In this document: positions 1,472-37,092 of the stretch, piece by piece | How positions within the stretch are numbered: the stretch's first letter is position 1 | Layout: every line of letters begins with the position of its first letter | Source of the DNA: Leptolyngbya boryana PCC 6306 | Lineage (GTDB): Bacteria > Cyanobacteriota > Cyanobacteriia > Leptolyngbyales > Leptolyngbyaceae | Length of the DNA stretch: 64,000 nt | Reading direction: 5' to 3' | NCBI RefSeq assembly: GCF_000353285.1 | Contig: NZ_KB731324.1 | Span: 3,552,577 to 3,616,576 of the forward strand | Position numbers and translations under genes: made by a program | The notes under the pieces: model-generated | What the model saw: only the letters and a program-made list of their open reading frames with translations | Database searches by the model: none | Told to the model about the DNA's origin: nothing

Positions 1472-2749
1472 GTGCAGAAATTCAGCTACACCGAAATTTT
1501 GGAACGCGCTCAAACCTCGGCTCGTCGCGCGGACTGGGAGCAATTAAGCTTAGACTTACAACTGCTCCTTCTAGGAGATGAGTCTACTCAAGGAACAGCA
1601 CTTTCTGACCCGAATGTGACACCTGCACTTCTGAATCTAGCCATGCAAGTTCTAGAATCCGGAAGTTTCCAAGAACGTTGGGACATTGCAAAAGTCTTTC
1701 CGAATTTCGGCATTGATGCACTTCGGCCCTTAATTGAACTGCTCAAAGATGAAGAAGCTGATCCGGAGTCTCAGTGGTTTGCGATCCGCATCTTAGGAAA
1801 CTTTCATCACCCTCAAGTGGTTGAAACCTTGATTGAGGTCTTGAAGACTTCGCACAGTGAAGAACTCAATTCAATGGCAGTTTCAGTGCTCGCAACTTTA
1901 GGGAGTACGGCTGTGCATGTGATTGAAGAGTTATTGCATGAAGATTCGACTCGATTGTTTGCGACCCAAGCATTAGGACAAATTCGGCGATCGCAGACCG
2001 TGCCCTTGCTGATGCAAGTCGTGAATGACTCAGATGCTCAAGTGCGCGCGATCGCCATCGAAGCGCTCAGCAGCTTTCATTCTCCTGAAATTACTGCCCT
2101 CTTGATCACCGCCCTCAAAGATGTCGCGGCTCCGGTCAGAATTGCCGCAGTATCAGGACTGGGATTTTGTGAAGGGCGAGATTTAGTCAAGCATCTCCGC
2201 CCGTTATTGTTTGATCTGAATTTGGAAGTGTGTCGTCAGGCGGCGATCGCGTTAGGTCGCCTTGCGACTCCCGAAGCTGCAACTGCTCTGTATGAAGCTT
2301 TGAAGTCAGAGTATATGCCAGAAAATCTCGCGATCGACTTAGTTCGTGCTTTAGGATGGATGCCGATCGTGGATGCACTCATCTATTTAGAATGTGTTTT
2401 CATGACAACTTCTGATGAAGGAATTCAGCTTGAGATTGTTCAAACTTTAGGGCGAGTTGGAGAGAATTTACGATCGCAAGCGACTGCCATTTTATTAGCC
2501 TGTCCTACACGTACACCAACCGTTCGGCAAGCCGTGGCGCTTTCTCTGGGGCAATTAGGCGATCCGAATGCGATCGATCCGCTGATCGCGATGCTAGCAG
2601 ATGCTGATGAGGGCGTACGATTGCATGTGATTTCTGCTTTAAAGACATTAGATGCAGAGGTCGCGTATCAAAAATTAGGTCAGATCGAAGCACAAGAATC
2701 AGACTTGAAAACAGGAATTGCGATCGCGCTGCAAGAATGGAGCTACTGA
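1472..2749 (+). CDS. HEAT-repeat protein
   Basis: 425 residues starting at GTG 1472. From about residue 60 to the end the protein is a run of ~30-residue helical repeats of HEAT / PBS-lyase type, for example DAQVRAIAIEALSSF, APVRIAAVSGLGF, LEVCRQAAIALGRL and PTVRQAVALSLGQLGDP. Cyanobacteria have many such proteins. Some are phycobilin lyases (CpcE/F type) and others are scaffolds. I see no feature that marks this one as a lyase, and no phycobilisome gene is near. There is no signal peptide. A protein-protein interaction role is all the sequence supports. Confidence 0.8.
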   Translation: MQKFSYTEILERAQTSARRADWEQLSLDLQLLLLGDESTQGTALSDPNVTPALLNLAMQVLESGSFQERWDIAKVFPNFGIDALRPLIELLKDEEADPESQWFAIRILGNFHHPQVVETLIEVLKTSHSEELNSMAVSVLATLGSTAVHVIEELLHEDSTRLFATQALGQIRRSQTVPLLMQVVNDSDAQVRAIAIEALSSFHSPEITALLITALKDVAAPVRIAAVSGLGFCEGRDLVKHLRPLLFDLNLEVCRQAAIALGRLATPEAATALYEALKSEYMPENLAIDLVRALGWMPIVDALIYLECVFMTTSDEGIQLEIVQTLGRVGENLRSQATAILLACPTRTPTVRQAVALSLGQLGDPNAIDPLIAMLADADEGVRLHVISALKTLDAEVAYQKLGQIEAQESDLKTGIAIALQEWSY

Positions 2750-2877
2750 GGTCGAGAGAACGCTAGAAACTACTGCTTTTGGCTCGACACAACTCATCAA
2801 AAGGGTGAGGAAGCCAGAGTCAGCGAACCTTATTGTGAAGACATATTCGTTCTTTACTAAGGATCGACAAAAGTACT

Positions 2878-3711
2878 ATGGCGCTTCATAAGATTAAGGA
2901 TTTTGACCCCGACTATCGGACGCATTTTGATAATGATGATGTAATTGGGCTTGACTTATATTCTGGCAACGACAAGATCGGTTCAGTTGAGGATGTTCTC
3001 GTTGATGATAATGGTGCATTCCGTTATCTCGTGATCAATACAGGTGTGTGGATTTTGGGTAAAAAAGTCCTGATGCCGATCGGACAAGCTCGAATTGTTT
3101 ATGGCGAACGTCGAGTGTATGCCAACGGCTTAACCAAGGCTCAAGTCGAAGATTTACCCGAATACGACCCGGATCACTTGGTCGGCTACGACTACGAAGA
3201 ACAAGTCCGCGATATCTATCGTCCGAATACAGTCGCAGCGGGCATGACTGCAACCGACATGACCTACGACCAAGACAGCTATCGCTACGAGCATGATCCA
3301 GCGTTGTACAATCTCACCGAAGATCACGACACTTTACGTCTGTATCAAGAGCGCTTAATTGCCAATAAAGCTCGTCGCAAAACAGGTGAAGTGGCAGTCG
3401 GTAAACACATTGAAACTGAAACCGCACGGGTGGAAGTTCCAGTCGAGAGAGAGCGAGTTGTCATCGAGCGATCTCCTGTTACAGGTGAATCAACTGTGAT
3501 GCCGGGTGAAGCAGATTTCCACGAAGGCGAAGTCGCACGGGTGGAAGTCTATGAAGAAGTGCCTGATATCCAGAAAGAGACATTTGTGCGCGAAGAAGTC
3601 CGCGTGAAAAAGGTCGTCGATCATGAAACAGTAACCGCAGAGGATCAGGTTCGCCGAGAAGAACTCGATCTCGACATTGATGGCAATCCGAATGTCGATC
3701 GACAAATCTAA
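2878..3711 (+). CDS. PRC-barrel / DUF2382 stress-type protein
   Basis: 277 residues. Residues ~15-95 form a PRC-barrel domain (VIGLDLYSGNDKIGSVEDVL through LMPIGQARIVY). Residues ~145-265 form a DUF2382 (YsnF/AvaK) domain with the typical LRLYQERLIANK, RRKTGEVAVGKHIETE and PVERERVVIE blocks followed by a highly charged E/V/R-rich tail. Proteins of this type are linked to stress and desiccation in cyanobacteria and other bacteria, but their biochemistry is unclear. It has an AAGGA-like site about 15 bases upstream. It opens a same-strand run with another DUF2382 gene, a CAAD protein and a small hypothetical gene. Confidence 0.87.
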   Translation: MALHKIKDFDPDYRTHFDNDDVIGLDLYSGNDKIGSVEDVLVDDNGAFRYLVINTGVWILGKKVLMPIGQARIVYGERRVYANGLTKAQVEDLPEYDPDHLVGYDYEEQVRDIYRPNTVAAGMTATDMTYDQDSYRYEHDPALYNLTEDHDTLRLYQERLIANKARRKTGEVAVGKHIETETARVEVPVERERVVIERSPVTGESTVMPGEADFHEGEVARVEVYEEVPDIQKETFVREEVRVKKVVDHETVTAEDQVRREELDLDIDGNPNVDRQI

Positions 3712-3743
3712 TTTTGGCTAAGTAACCTCAGTGTTGATGTGAA

Positions 3744-3794
3744 GAGTAGGGAGTAGGGAGTTACCCCCCATCTCCCACTCCCCACTCCCCACTT
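3744..3794. repeat. G-rich/C-rich hairpin repeat, copy 3
   Basis: Tandem AGTAGGG/AGTAGGG heptamers at 3745-3760 face CCCACTC/CCCACTC heptamers at 3773-3792, giving an imperfect stem with a short loop. It separates the two DUF2382 genes and could fold in the transcript as an attenuator or partial terminator. Confidence 0.7.
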
Positions 3795-3836
3795 AAGAAC
3801 CCACAACCCCAACAGATCACTCCCCTTACCCGAATC

Positions 3837-4271
3837 ATGACCTCTCAACCTCACAGCTTACTACCTAGCGAAGAAATCGATCTCACCCCTGAACAAGCCA
3901 TTCGCCTGTTAGAAGAACGATTAATCGTTCGGTCTGATAAGCGGAAGGTTGGAGAAATCGTGGTGCGGAAAGAAGTCGAAGTCCGCATGGTCGAAGTTCC
4001 CGTCCGTCGCGAAAAGCTGATCGTTGAGCAAGTTCAGCCCAAGTATGAGCGACTTGCAGAAATTGATCTCGGACAAACCACTGAAACCGCAGGTTCAGGA
4101 GCCATCGTCTCTGGCGAATTCGACTCTCCCCGTGCGGTCAGCGATCTCTTAGATGCGATCGCAAGAACTCCGGATCACAGTTGTGCTGAAATTCGTGTCG
4201 AAATCAAGCTCAAAGATTCTAAGCATCAAGAGACTTATCAAACTTGGTTCGATCGCTGCCGTAAATCCTAG
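3837..4271 (+). CDS. DUF2382 (YsnF/AvaK-type) protein
   Basis: 144 residues. The DUF2382 core occupies residues ~15-70 (LTPEQAIRLLEERLIVRSDK, GEIVVRKEVEVRMVEVPVRREKLIVEQV) and closely parallels the second domain of the protein encoded at 2878-3711. Here it lacks a PRC barrel. The C-terminal half (~80-144) looks like a small alpha/beta unit. The start ATG at 3837 is the first in frame after the repeat. Its stop is 9 bases before the CAAD gene, so the two are almost certainly co-transcribed. Function unknown; likely a stress-related accessory protein. Confidence 0.82.
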   Translation: MTSQPHSLLPSEEIDLTPEQAIRLLEERLIVRSDKRKVGEIVVRKEVEVRMVEVPVRREKLIVEQVQPKYERLAEIDLGQTTETAGSGAIVSGEFDSPRAVSDLLDAIARTPDHSCAEIRVEIKLKDSKHQETYQTWFDRCRKS

Positions 4272-30364: not shown

Positions 30365-30898
30365 ATGATGACTTTATTTTTTCTGATCGCGATCGCTGCA
30401 ATTCTTGGCGCGATCGTGTCTGCATCTCGCACTTATACAAAACTCAAGTTACAGCCCAATTCTGTTCAAGAAGCCATTGCCCCAGAAGCTCCGAAACTTC
30501 AGCCTGATTTAGACTCTGAAGGTGCAATTCTGTCGATGATTCCACAGCCTACACCTGATATTCCTTTAGCGACATCGCTGAGAATTTCAGAGGTGATTGA
30601 TCCGAGCTTAGAGACTGATTCACCCCCAGAAGCAACGCATCATTCCCAGCCTGTTCTCGCAGAACTTGAGCAGTTAGAACAGGTTGAGGAAACGTTGAAT
30701 CAGCTGACGAGCAAGGTCATCGATCCAGATCCATTCATGCGATTGGCGGTTGCGGTTGAATTGGGAGAGTTGGCAAAACGAGGGCAAGCGGTTGATCGAG
30801 TCGTGACCCTCTTGAATCGATTGCTAGAAGATGCTGATTTAGAAGTTCGAGTCCAAGCAGGAGCATCTTTAGCAATGCTTCCGAATGCTCTAATTTAG
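30365..30898 (+). CDS. Membrane-anchored protein with C-terminal HEAT-like repeat
   Basis: 177 residues; ATG at 30365 or the next codon ATG at 30368. One N-terminal membrane helix (LFFLIAIAAILGAIVSA, residues ~4-20) is followed by a proline/acidic linker to about residue 95 and then a helical region ending in a HEAT-type unit (FMRLAVAVELGELAKRGQ, DADLEVRVQAGASLAMLP). No family name comes to mind. It probably anchors a protein-interaction module at the membrane. The last four bases overlap the end of the convergent cysteine desulfurase gene. Confidence 0.7.
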   Translation: MMTLFFLIAIAAILGAIVSASRTYTKLKLQPNSVQEAIAPEAPKLQPDLDSEGAILSMIPQPTPDIPLATSLRISEVIDPSLETDSPPEATHHSQPVLAELEQLEQVEETLNQLTSKVIDPDPFMRLAVAVELGELAKRGQAVDRVVTLLNRLLEDADLEVRVQAGASLAMLPNALI

Positions 30899-32064
30899 TA
30901 GCATTCACAGGGCTGCTTTTGAGGTTGCAGACGCGCCAAGATCTGCTGCAATACGATTGCAGTCCAATCAATATCTTCTTCGGTTGTCTGTTTTCCTAAC
31001 GTAAGCCGGATACCTGATTTCGCAACACGATCGTCATAACCCATCGCCTGCAAAATCGTACTGGGGCGCAATGTTCCGCTACTACAGGCAGCCCCTGCAC
31101 TAATTCCAATGCCCGCAAGATTCATTTGTCGAACTAACACTTTGCCATTCAGCGTCTGCCCATCTGCCTCGGGTAAGCAGAAGCTGACATGATGCGGGAG
31201 CCGATGCACCCGGTCTCCGGTCACGACTAAGCCAGAAACATTAGATAGCGCATCAAATAAGCGATCACGGAGCCGAATCAAGCGAGGAGTTTCGATCGCT
31301 AATTCTTGAGCGATCAACTCGGCTGCAATGCCAAAACTTGCGATCGCTGGCAGAGCTTGCGTGCCCGATCGCAGTTTTGCTTCTTGTCCGCCACCATTGA
31401 GCAGCGGCAGAAGTTTTACCCCAGGACGCACATAAAGTGCTCCAGCCCCCTGAGAGCCGTAAATTTTATGACTTGACAGTGACAGTAAATCAATCGGTAA
31501 GTGCTGAACATCGATCGGCAATCGTCCCGCAACCTGGACAGCATCGGTATGAAAAACTGCACCATGATCATGAACAATCTGACCCAATTGGGCGATCGGT
31601 TGAAGTGTTCCAACTTCGCTTTGACCATAGATGATCGACACTAAAACGGTGTTGGATTGAAGCGATGCTTTTAAATCTGCGGGATCGACTTGTCCAAGTC
31701 GATTCACTGGCAGTCGAGTCACTTCCCAACCCCACTGTTCTAGAAGGCTTGCAGGCTCAGAAGTGGCGGAATGTTCAACACTAGAAATAATGATATGTTG
31801 AGGCGTACGGTACTGCTGAGCGATTCCCATCACCGCAAGATTATTTGACTCTGTTCCACCCGAGGTAAAAACAATTGACTCTTCGGGTGCATTAATTAGA
31901 CGAGCAACTTGAACGCGCGATCGCTCTAGAATCGTTGCCGCACGCTGACCCCACTGATGCAAACTCGACGGATTGCCCCATTCCTCCGTCAGGACTTGTT
32001 GCATTGCTGCGATCGCTTCGGGTCGCGTGGGCGTAGTTGCACTATAGTCGAGATAAATTTGCAT
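30895..32064 (-). CDS. Cysteine desulfurase (IscS/NifS family)
   Basis: 389 residues. The PLP lysine is in SLSSHKIYGSQGAGALYVRP and the sulfur-carrying cysteine in GISAGAACSSGTLRPS. The N-terminus IYLDYSATTPTRPEAIAAM and FTSGGTESNNLAV are typical. The enzyme takes sulfur from cysteine as a persulfide for iron-sulfur clusters and thio-modifications. No isc or suf partner gene is adjacent, so it acts as a stand-alone source of sulfur. Which paralog it is cannot be fixed from this window. Confidence 0.93.
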   Translation of the reverse strand: MQIYLDYSATTPTRPEAIAAMQQVLTEEWGNPSSLHQWGQRAATILERSRVQVARLINAPEESIVFTSGGTESNNLAVMGIAQQYRTPQHIIISSVEHSATSEPASLLEQWGWEVTRLPVNRLGQVDPADLKASLQSNTVLVSIIYGQSEVGTLQPIAQLGQIVHDHGAVFHTDAVQVAGRLPIDVQHLPIDLLSLSSHKIYGSQGAGALYVRPGVKLLPLLNGGGQEAKLRSGTQALPAIASFGIAAELIAQELAIETPRLIRLRDRLFDALSNVSGLVVTGDRVHRLPHHVSFCLPEADGQTLNGKVLVRQMNLAGIGISAGAACSSGTLRPSTILQAMGYDDRVAKSGIRLTLGKQTTEEDIDWTAIVLQQILARLQPQKQPCECY

Positions 32065-32157: not shown

Positions 32158-33714
32158 GTGGTCAGACTGAATCACCTTATCCAGTTTAGTCTCTGTACGC
32201 TCCTATTTGCGGGATGCCGAGCAGCTTCATCTTCGATCAGTGTGCGCCCACTGCCACAAGATCCCAACATCCAAGTCTTTACGAATCAAGCAGCGGCCTC
32301 TGAATATACTGAGCCGTATCGCAAAATTACAAGGGCAGGCGATAACTTAGAAGAAGTTTTAATCGATACGATCGCACAGGCAAAGTCGAGCATTGATGTT
32401 GCTGTTCAAGAATTTCGATTGCCTAATGTGGCGAAGGCATTGCGCGATCGAGCCGCAGCAGGCGTGACCGTGCGAGTGATTCTCGAAAATCAGTACGCTC
32501 GTCCTTACAGCAGTTATTCTGCCGCAGAAGTTGAGAAATTGCCGGAGCGAGAAAAAGCGAGATATCAGGAATCCAGAACGCTGATCGATCAAGATCAAGA
32601 TGGACAGTTAAGCCTGACTGAAATTCAGGATCGAGATGCCTTAGTGATGTTGGATGTTGCGAAGATTCCTCGGATCGATGATCGAGCCGATGGCAGCCGA
32701 GGCAGTAACTTAATGCACCACAAATTCATAGTTGTGGATGGAAAGACTACGATCGTGACTTCGGCAAACTTCACGATGTCAGACGTACACGGAGACTTTG
32801 CTCGTCCTAGCAGCCGCGGCAATGCTAATAATTTGCTGAAGATGGAAAGTGTGGAAGTTGCACAGGCTTTTACAGCAGAATTTGAACTCATGTGGAGCGA
32901 TCGCAAATTTGGCGTGAAAAAGCCATTTCGTCCAGCACAGCAGTTCAAACTGGGCGAGAGCGTGATTTCCTTGCAGTTCTCACCCAATTCCAGAACGATT
33001 CCCTGGGAACAAACACCCAATGGTTTGATTGCCAAAACGCTTCAGCAATCCACGCAAGCGATCGATTTAGCGTTGTTTGTGTTCTCGGATCAGGATCTAG
33101 TTAATACGATCGAAGGAAAATCAATTCGGGCATTAATCGAACCCAGCTTCATGTATAGACCTTTCAGCGAAGGTTTAGATATGTTAGGCGTGGCGCTAAG
33201 TAATAACTGCAAGTGGGAAGTCAATAATCGTCCTTGGCAAAATCCCATCAAGACAGCTGGAGTGCCGCAACTTCCGCCCGGTGATATGTTGCATCACAAG
33301 TTTGGAATTGTAGACGGACATACCGTGATTACAGGGTCTCATAACTGGACGCTTGCCGCGAATCGTGGAAATGATGAAACGGTTATCGTGATTCGGAATC
33401 CGGTAGTTGCAGCCCATTTTCAACGAGAATTTGATCGACTGTATGCAAATTCAGTTCTGGGGATTCCTCCAGCAATTCAGCGCAAGGTTGAGGCTGAACA
33501 GAAACAATGTCCTCCACCAAGCCAATCTCGCACCGGGTTAGTCAATCTCAATACTGCAACTCAGGCAGAGTTAGAAGCATTGCCGGGAGTTGGCTCAGGA
33601 TTAGCGAAACGAATCATTCAAGCCCGTCCATTTCAGTCCTTGGAAGATCTCGATCATGTGCCTGGTGTCGGGAAGAAGTTGATAGAACGCTTGAGCGATC
33701 GTGTGACCTGGTAG
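32158..33714 (+). CDS. Exported PLD-family protein with EF-hand loop and HhH domain
   Basis: 518 residues from GTG 32158. A lipoprotein-type signal ends at LLFAGC (C20). Two phospholipase-D HKD motifs are present: H187-K189-D194 in MHHKFIVVDG and a second in LHHKFGIVDG near residue 380. Between the first PLD strand and its HKD lies a perfect EF-hand loop, DQDQDGQLSLTE (144-155), then a DRDALV continuation. The C-terminus (~460-518) is a ComEA-type helix-hairpin-helix pair (LVNLNTATQAELEALPGVGS, DLDHVPGVGKKLIERL) that binds DNA. An extracellular, calcium-dependent nuclease is the simplest reading; lipid hydrolysis is less likely given the HhH domain. Confidence 0.85.
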   Translation: MVRLNHLIQFSLCTLLFAGCRAASSSISVRPLPQDPNIQVFTNQAAASEYTEPYRKITRAGDNLEEVLIDTIAQAKSSIDVAVQEFRLPNVAKALRDRAAAGVTVRVILENQYARPYSSYSAAEVEKLPEREKARYQESRTLIDQDQDGQLSLTEIQDRDALVMLDVAKIPRIDDRADGSRGSNLMHHKFIVVDGKTTIVTSANFTMSDVHGDFARPSSRGNANNLLKMESVEVAQAFTAEFELMWSDRKFGVKKPFRPAQQFKLGESVISLQFSPNSRTIPWEQTPNGLIAKTLQQSTQAIDLALFVFSDQDLVNTIEGKSIRALIEPSFMYRPFSEGLDMLGVALSNNCKWEVNNRPWQNPIKTAGVPQLPPGDMLHHKFGIVDGHTVITGSHNWTLAANRGNDETVIVIRNPVVAAHFQREFDRLYANSVLGIPPAIQRKVEAEQKQCPPPSQSRTGLVNLNTATQAELEALPGVGSGLAKRIIQARPFQSLEDLDHVPGVGKKLIERLSDRVTW

Positions 33715-36330: not shown

Positions 36331-37092
36331 TTATTCTGCTTTCGCTTTACGTTTGCGGGCAGAGTAAGCGCCAACTGCGCCCAGAGCCAGCAATCCAGCA
36401 GCAGAAGCGGGTTCTGGAACGGATTCAGCAGGCGGCATATCAGTGACATCAGCAACCGTCAGCTTGGTGCGGAAAATGGTGTAGCGATTATTATCACGCT
36501 TGTCACCGGATGAATTGGTCGTGGTGTTGAGGAATTCTGCTGCTTGAGTCACTTCCGAAATCCGTCCCCAAGGACGAGTTGAACCATCGTTCAAGCCTCG
36601 GCTACGAGCAGAAATCCAATTCGCATTCGAGATTTCCCAGTTCAACTCAGCATTACCGGGTGTGTGTCCCCAGTCACCGGGGTTTGTGCCTTTCTGAGTA
36701 ATGACATACTCCCACGCATCCGGTTTCGAGAGTAAGTTGTAAGTCTTGCTGTCTTTGTCTTTGAAGCTGAACTCGCCGACCCAAGACTCGTCTACACTGC
36801 GATCGTCCCAAACGACGACATACAAATAATCATTAGAGTCCATTGTGAAATCCCAAGTTTCGGCATGTGACCAGTTGTAGCCGCCCGTGCTGCCATTGGG
36901 ACCATACTCATTGCGTCCGACGAAGTTTAAGCGGTCGCCCGTGCTGCTGCCATGAAAGAGTCCGTAGTGATTATCAGCAGTTAGCGTAGCCCGACTCGTG
37001 AGGGAAGCTGCAAACGCTTGACCTGCGTTCGAGAGTGCGATCCCCATTGCAAGAATTGCTCCAGCAATGAACTGTTTTCCAGAGAGAGACAT
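36331..37092 (-). CDS. PEP-CTERM sorted surface protein
   Basis: 253 residues. A signal peptide (about 1-29, AGAILAMGIALSNAGQAFAAS) leads a mature domain rich in W, N, G and D (NYWSHAETWDFTMDSNDYLYVV-like region). The C-terminus is a PEP-CTERM signal: VPEPASAAGLLALGAVGAYS followed by ARKRKAKAE. Such proteins are cut and attached or secreted through exosortase; the exosortase gene is not in this window. The function of the mature domain is unknown to me. A strong terminator follows. Confidence 0.85.
   Translation of the reverse strand: MSLSGKQFIAGAILAMGIALSNAGQAFAASLTSRATLTADNHYGLFHGSSTGDRLNFVGRNEYGPNGSTGGYNWSHAETWDFTMDSNDYLYVVVWDDRSVDESWVGEFSFKDKDSKTYNLLSKPDAWEYVITQKGTNPGDWGHTPGNAELNWEISNANWISARSRGLNDGSTRPWGRISEVTQAAEFLNTTTNSSGDKRDNNRYTIFRTKLTVADVTDMPPAESVPEPASAAGLLALGAVGAYSARKRKAKAE

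Follow-up and report, generated by a model that had tools for sequence, protein, structure and literature searches.

A probable ComA/ComEA (Slr0197-family) protein of Leptolyngbya boryana with a predicted calcium-binding EF-hand in its phospholipase D-type domain

We analysed a 64,000-nucleotide stretch of Leptolyngbya boryana PCC 6306 (contig NZ_KB731324.1, positions 3,552,577 to 3,616,576 of the forward strand; hereafter the window), which comes from a genome of 7.26 Mb in five contigs. The gene under study encodes a 518-residue protein that combines a phospholipase D (PLD) domain, an EF-hand and a ComEA-like helix-hairpin-helix (HhH) pair (Table 1). We consider it likely that this protein is the cyanobacterial ComA/ComEA of the Slr0197 family, an envelope-anchored predicted nuclease for DNA uptake, and that it carries a Ca2+-binding EF-hand. 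An EF-hand in a ComA-type protein appears to be undescribed. No literature description of one in Slr0197/ComA was found among the matches listed (titles and beginnings of abstracts); Yura 1999 and Yoshihara 2001 may mention it. Among named relatives, Leptolyngbya sp. Prado105 is the closest (86% identical).

Domain content and relation to Slr0197

The lipoprotein export signal proposed by the first-pass annotation, which was made from the DNA letters alone, was recovered as a lipobox. The nuclease-type PLD domain was confirmed by two HKD motifs and by a PLDc_2 match in two stretches (137.5 bits against a Pfam cut-off of 27), and the ComEA-like HhH pair at the C-terminus by an HHH_3 match above its cut-off. 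The same annotation had not recognised this architecture as described. It is probably known, since a layout of DNA-binding and endonuclease domains has already been described for ComA.

Table 1. Features of the window gene, its product and its conserved neighbour (window coordinates).
Feature	Coordinates	Strand	Details
PLD/EF-hand/HhH gene	32158..33714	+	GTG start, 518-residue open reading frame (ORF); probable orthologue of ComA/ComEA (Slr0197)
Export signal, residues 1-20	32158..32217	+	lipobox LFAGC, with lipidation predicted at Cys20; model helix 2-22
N-terminal PLD half, residues ~35-250 (approximate)	32260..32907	+	PLDc_2 68-246; PDB alignment across model residues 31-443
EF-hand helix-loop-helix, residues 130-167	32545..32658	+	model helices 130-143, 153-159 and 161-167; fragment model
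EF-hand loop DQDQDGQLSLTE, 12 residues, 144-155	32587..32622	+	motif match; ligand conservation
HKD motif 1 HHKFIVVD, residues 187-194	32716..32739	+	H187, K189 and D194 invariant (135 sequences)
HKD motif 2 HHKFGIVD, residues 379-386	33292..33315	+	H379 invariant; H380, K381 and D386 at least 90% (135 sequences)
ComEA-like HhH pair, residues 461-517	33538..33708	+	HHH_3 59.6 bits (Pfam cut-off 27); PDB match 2duy, E=2.1e-10
Cysteine desulfurase-like neighbour (by recognition), divergent	30895..32064	-	conserved neighbour; 93 bp intergenic to the PLD gene

In the passages of the literature available to us, ComA/Slr0197 is described by reviews as having DNA-binding and endonuclease-type domains, and Slr0197 as needed for transformation and dispensable for motility. 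The available part of one study names slr0197 comEA, refers to positions in its ORF as far as 844 bp and reports that gene transfer is abolished when it is knocked out (PMC10667661); that of another gives all3087 as the orthologue in Anabaena 7120 (PMC3976300). The window protein agrees with the description of Slr0197 in domain content, with DNA-binding and endonuclease-type domains and a predicted envelope anchor. It differs from it in the EF-hand, which is absent from the passages describing ComA.

The link to Slr0197 was followed through genus g8, which includes a Synechocystis-like genome, G076. The PsbU protein of G076 matches 7n8o_U at 3e-79, the next distinct sequence standing at 4.6e-34, and we take 7n8o to be photosystem II of Synechocystis 6803. 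In each of the four g8 genomes searched, HHH_3 matches the PLD protein best. The other HHH_3 matches in these genomes fall short of the length that an 844-bp ORF requires, apart from a 353-residue ORF in G014 and partial matches within ORFs of about 644 residues in G076 and G093. An rpiA-like ORF, recognised as ribose-5-phosphate isomerase-like, stands two ORFs upstream of PLD at the G076 locus (L102). As slr0194 is presumably rpiA, the PLD gene of L102 would be slr0197. Like the window protein, its product has the PLD domain, the EF-hand and the HhH pair; unlike the window protein, it has an N-terminal hydrophobic stretch and no lipobox. The same replacement of the lipobox is seen in L095 and L100 of this genus, so the anchoring mode varies within the family. 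Over all aligned rows, a lipobox-like match within the first 70 residues was found in 91 of 139 (start codons not curated).

Most of these rows come from a whole-genome search that covered 386 genomes of the phylum. At E≤1e-20, 158 of them gave a homolog: 153 of the same class as the window, its own genome counted, and 5 of other classes. Loci from 129 same-class genomes, out of 152 besides the window's own, make up the 139 rows together with the query and nine named loci. A tenth named locus, L045, was left out as a distant PLD, and 23 same-class genomes with a match lie outside the alignment. Near-duplicate rows occur across the collections, L018 being equal to L040 and L024 to L042 in the tree columns. 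The tree was built from the PLD columns minus the EF region by a quick method under LG+G4, and 48 of its 134 inner branches were drawn open. Changes were counted on it with L110 left out for the EF-hand and L076, L108 and L110 for the HhH tail.

The order of PLD domain, EF-hand and HhH pair recurs in most sampled families of the class. The search for it in other genomes, which the first-pass annotation had proposed, thus succeeded, and a rare lineage-specific fusion is ruled out. Of the 139 rows, 136 have two HKD motifs; two rows have three motifs, and a single row has one. The HhH tail is present in 83 rows and absent from 56, with at least 18 changes on the tree. Because the HKD pair is near-constant and the tail changes so often, the PLD domain is the stable core of the family and the HhH tail its changeable part. 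Bacillus-type ComEA resembles the window protein in having an (HhH)2 DNA-binding module at its C-terminus; we know of no nuclease domain in it. Against the ComEA model TIGR01259 the window protein scored 52.5 bits, under the cut-off of 152.35.

At locus L097, an HhH-less copy (2493-3941, minus strand) ends in a stop codon, and just past it lies a 61-residue HhH-like stretch that is 66% identical to the tail of L035. This remnant likely reflects a recent loss of the tail, and it was the only downstream remnant among the 56 HhH-less rows. A stand-alone exported ComEA was sought in 18 genomes with an HhH-less PLD protein. Many of them have stand-alone ORFs of about 174-250 residues with HHH_3 matches, often two; the two ORFs read (L171 and L172) had no obvious signal peptide by eye, and a motif filter gave no hit at eight other loci. 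An HhH match in the other-class genome G035 was ruled out as a PLD protein on reading. The ORF concerned, L195 (G035:C362:900-3221, plus strand), has 440 residues, with an export-type N-terminus, a stretch recognised as metallo-beta-lactamase-fold-like and then two ComEA-like HhH pairs. Its tail is thus like that of the PLD protein on a different presumed nuclease fold. The metallo-beta-lactamase fold is also that of the C-terminal domain of ComEC.

The EF-hand loop

The perfect 12-residue EF-hand loop reported by the first-pass annotation is present, and a well-preserved loop of the calcium-binding type occurs in roughly nine of every ten relatives sampled. Classified by pattern, the loop is strict in 77 of the 139 rows, relaxed in 43, degenerate in 7 and missing from 12. 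The objection that the annotation had raised to its own reading, absence of the loop in homologs, is answered by its presence in 127 rows, the 7 degenerate ones included. Conservation was measured after L110, which is truncated at its N-terminus, and the 12 EF-less rows had been set aside, leaving 126 EF-bearing rows. Position 1 carries D in 125 rows, as position 12 carries E in 125; positions 3 and 5 are N, D or S in every row. All four ligand positions (1, 3 and 5 as D/N/S, 12 as E/D) are satisfied in 125 of 126 rows, the exception being L059. The entropy is 0.07-0.71 bits at these four positions, compared with 2.2-3.0 bits at positions 2, 4, 7, 10 and 11. Ligands kept in this way amid variable non-ligand positions rule out a chance match to the EF-hand pattern. 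They also strongly suggest Ca2+ binding.

The structural prediction is consistent with this assignment. An AlphaFold2 model built with the family alignment (135 sequences) reached a mean predicted local distance difference test score (pLDDT) of 94.4. In it, helix 130-143 is followed by the loop and by a helix from residue 153; a second helix starting there is the canonical EF-hand register. The first-pass annotation had set the loop between the first PLD strand and the first HKD motif. The loop does lie ahead of that motif and of strand 172-174, but the strand that it follows in the model is 104-109 and not the first strand of the PLD domain, 78-83. The EF fragment was modelled with a pLDDT of 89.2. 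Among the matches listed in its fold search, EF-hand proteins, identified by title or recognised chain, made up at least 48 of 50 Foldseek rows and 23 of 23 VIA rows. The scores were weak, with no match at E≤0.001, a best E of 1.5 and a best Z of 3.4. A sequence search with the 52-residue segment placed calmodulins and other EF-hand proteins on top, at marginal values (best E 0.012; best single stretch 4.8). PF13202 (EF-hand_5) was matched by 50 of the 139 family members at E≤0.01. As a whole, the conservation, the models and these searches provide strong evidence for a conserved metal site. The same Ca2+-binding loop is reported in many unrelated structural contexts in a survey of DxDxDG loops that makes no mention of a nuclease or PLD, its phospholipase being the propeller-bearing glycosylphosphatidylinositol-specific enzyme (PMC3123361).

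The rows without the loop fall into a small number of cases. In L139-L142, L144 and L145 a single short gap takes its place, between flanks that are retained on either side; L123-L125, L128 and L133 have a longer gap at this place; and L143 is a third case. All 12 rows also lack the HhH tail, yet they form only two or three lineages, and both HKD motifs are kept in them. The absence of the loop requires at least two changes on the tree. As the EF-less rows nest among EF-bearing ones, their pattern suggests that absence arose by loss rather than gain, although the change counts cannot separate the two.

The lineages without the loop would fit a rival reading, in which the EF-hand is a structural relic that folds as helix-loop-helix but leaves Ca2+ no role in activity or stability. 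The EF-hand is moreover single and unpaired, and five rows of one clade depart from the full loop pattern, though with the ligand positions kept. Throughout the class, however, 125 of 126 EF-bearing members retain the four ligand positions amid freely varying non-ligand ones. This would be hard to explain without metal binding, and we regard a relic as quite improbable. If Ca2+ is bound, we prefer a structural over a regulatory role for it. Taken with the probable place of the protein in transformation, the conserved site suggests that calcium may matter for DNA uptake in these bacteria.

Predicted nuclease activity and co-occurrence with ComEC

In a structure search with the model, the closest fold was that of the Serratia plymuthica enzyme SpPLD (7e0m), with Z 32.3 and a root-mean-square deviation of 2.8 over 314 aligned residues. 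PLD3 and PLD4 (Z 29.8-30.6), vaccinia F13 (Z 29) and Escherichia coli phosphatidylserine synthase (Z 28) came next. Since all of these are close, the fold alone cannot choose between lipid and nucleic acid as the substrate. The main enzymatic rival is an enzyme with envelope lipids as its substrate, either a phospholipase D or another phosphodiesterase, to which the HhH tail would be an accessory. Two HKD motifs per chain are usual for phospholipases, and SpPLD is a secreted protein reported to be a phospholipase D, with F13 and phosphatidylserine synthase following closely. However, the nucleases PLD3 and PLD4 are nearly as close, and the best NCBIfam matches of the window protein were NucT, DrmC and comEA, not lipid enzymes; all three scored under their cut-offs, and lipid synthases matched weakly. 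The ComEA-like HhH pair is a DNA-binding module of established role, and the family tracks ComEC. We consider a lipid substrate distinctly unlikely; the NucT and DrmC profile matches, the ComEA-like tail and the link to ComEC together favour DNA, and we infer that the window protein is a nuclease.

The GSxN-like motifs add little to this choice. They read TSAN after the first HKD motif and GSHN after the second, with a serine in both. In the passages available, Streptomyces and human PLDs are reported with GG at the first motif, and SpPLD, whose authors ask about nucleic acid cleavage, with GS. The serine is thus nuclease-like yet indecisive, because SpPLD has GS at its first motif too.

Each of the known enzymes resembles the window protein in part. 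SpPLD is exported and has two HKD motifs and some nuclease-like loops, but it has 416 residues instead of 518 and its reported activity is that of a phospholipase D. PLD3 and PLD4 share the two-HKD fold and act on nucleic acid outside the cytosol, with about 15-17% identity in the aligned part. NucT has one HKD motif per chain. It is short, 162 residues in chain 6ehi, compared with the 518 residues of the window protein, which scored 65.9 bits against the NucT model NF010492, under its cut-off of 297. According to the available part of its description, NucT of Helicobacter pylori is a PLD nuclease of the periplasm that associates with the membrane; it is implicated both in transformation and in purine salvage and has a basic extra loop near its groove (PMC5714352). 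It offers a precedent in transformation for a PLD nuclease with this location.

Co-occurrence with ComEC (PF03772) was scored in all 186 same-class genomes drawn. Both genes are present in 151, PLD only in 2, ComEC only in 4 and neither in 29. Fisher's test gave 2e-27, and 4e-6 outside family f19, for genomes that are related and not independent. DprA is a true competence protein, whereas KaiA has no role in DNA uptake. As controls, the 31 ComEC-less genomes were scored for these genes and for the secretin family: PLD is absent from 29, DprA (over cut-off) from 26, KaiA from 24 and the secretin family from 17. On the ComEC-present side, the control genes were read in six genomes only (G051, G157, G264, G326, G316 and G257). 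PLD is the most concordant with ComEC of the four genes. The available part of one study reports that small-genome Prochlorococcus lack comAEF, two strains excepted (PMC5101192).

Two f19 genomes carry altered copies. The PLD homolog of G257 (G257:C1:360630-361924) is broken into two matches, which overlap and lie in different open frames. G316 has a weaker PLD match (G316:C1:1774820-1776127) than its relatives, and only a fragment of ComEC. A decay of DNA uptake is possible in these two genomes.

The distribution also bears on a second rival, an extracellular or periplasmic nuclease that would serve nutrient recovery or the clearing of foreign DNA and not transformation. An export signal on a PLD domain would suit such an enzyme, and the NucT of H. 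pylori has been linked to purine salvage besides transformation. The five genomes of other classes provide 12 loci (L146-L157) with 12 HKD ORFs, several with lipobox-like N-termini. None of the 12 had a strict EF loop, nor was a ComEA-like tail seen by eye, and they are perhaps general nucleases. What speaks against this role for the window protein is that its family follows ComEC and that Slr0197, with the same described domains, is needed for transformation and dispensable for motility in the passages cited above. A nutritional or defensive nuclease therefore seems to us very doubtful. The first-pass annotation had left uptake and nutrient recovery side by side. An exported DNA-processing enzyme in uptake is well supported by inference from the ComA/Slr0197 domain match and the ComEC distribution; for nutrient recovery no positive evidence was met, and no dedicated test of it was made.

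Several observations weigh against the assignment to ComA/ComEA or against parts of it. Orthology to Slr0197, matched by description and through the Synechocystis-like G076, is probable and not proven, and the rpiA-like neighbour was seen at L102 only of the three g8 loci read, not at L095 or L100. No Pfam EF-hand model matched the window segment at E≤0.01. The loop is absent from 12 of 139 rows, so Ca2+ would not be needed by every member, and the absence of the HhH tail from 56 rows makes the tail dispensable in many lineages. Lipid-type PLD-fold proteins are structurally close to the predicted model. PLD occurs without ComEC in G101 and G278, and ComEC without PLD in G051, G157, G264 and G326. 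ComEC is apparently intact in G051 and G157; its match is short or partial in G264 and G326, one in G326 lying near a contig edge. The 29 genomes with neither gene belong to only three family-level groups, f19 (24), f20 (2) and f6/g46 (3), and are largely small. Co-loss alone is a weak argument, because those 24 f19 genomes are also without KaiA, and because DprA is kept in the ComEC-less G111, G123 and G249.

Neighbouring genes and proposed role

The divergent cysteine desulfurase-like gene upstream belongs to the sole very frequent neighbour cluster, found at no fewer than 64 of the 139 loci and directly upstream and divergent at 50. These counts are lower bounds, as many loci have flanks of only about 1.5 kb. 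The gene is probably not part of the function of the PLD protein. Elsewhere in the window, psbD/psbC-like ORFs (by recognition) lie near the PLD gene, and positions 36331-37092 (minus strand) encode a predicted exported protein with a PEP-CTERM-like sorting tail, VPEPAS...RKRKAKAE, by eye.

For the ComA/ComEA protein we propose the following course of events. The protein would be anchored in the cell envelope, in the window as a predicted lipoprotein. A type IV pilus would bring DNA into the periplasm, where the (HhH)2 tail, if present, may hold it. The double-HKD PLD site, acting through its two histidines, would cut or trim the DNA, and one strand would then pass through ComEC. The single EF-hand in the N-terminal PLD half would bind one Ca2+ and most likely stabilise or lock the segment before the first HKD motif. 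A bolder version, which we hold only tentatively and think unlikely, makes Ca2+ a switch: occupancy of the EF-hand would license the ComA nuclease, so that external calcium gates transformation; loop-less lineages would be uncoupled from it, and where the HhH tail is missing the PLD domain alone would be both receptor and nuclease.

A near-invariant calcium-type site in a catalytic domain would allow calcium control over DNA uptake to be tested with a single residue, and the natural EF-less and HhH-less orthologues offer matched comparisons. With HhH in 83 of 139 rows, the PLD domain and not HhH is the conserved core of the family, which suggests that ComEA recognition based on HhH misses many orthologues.
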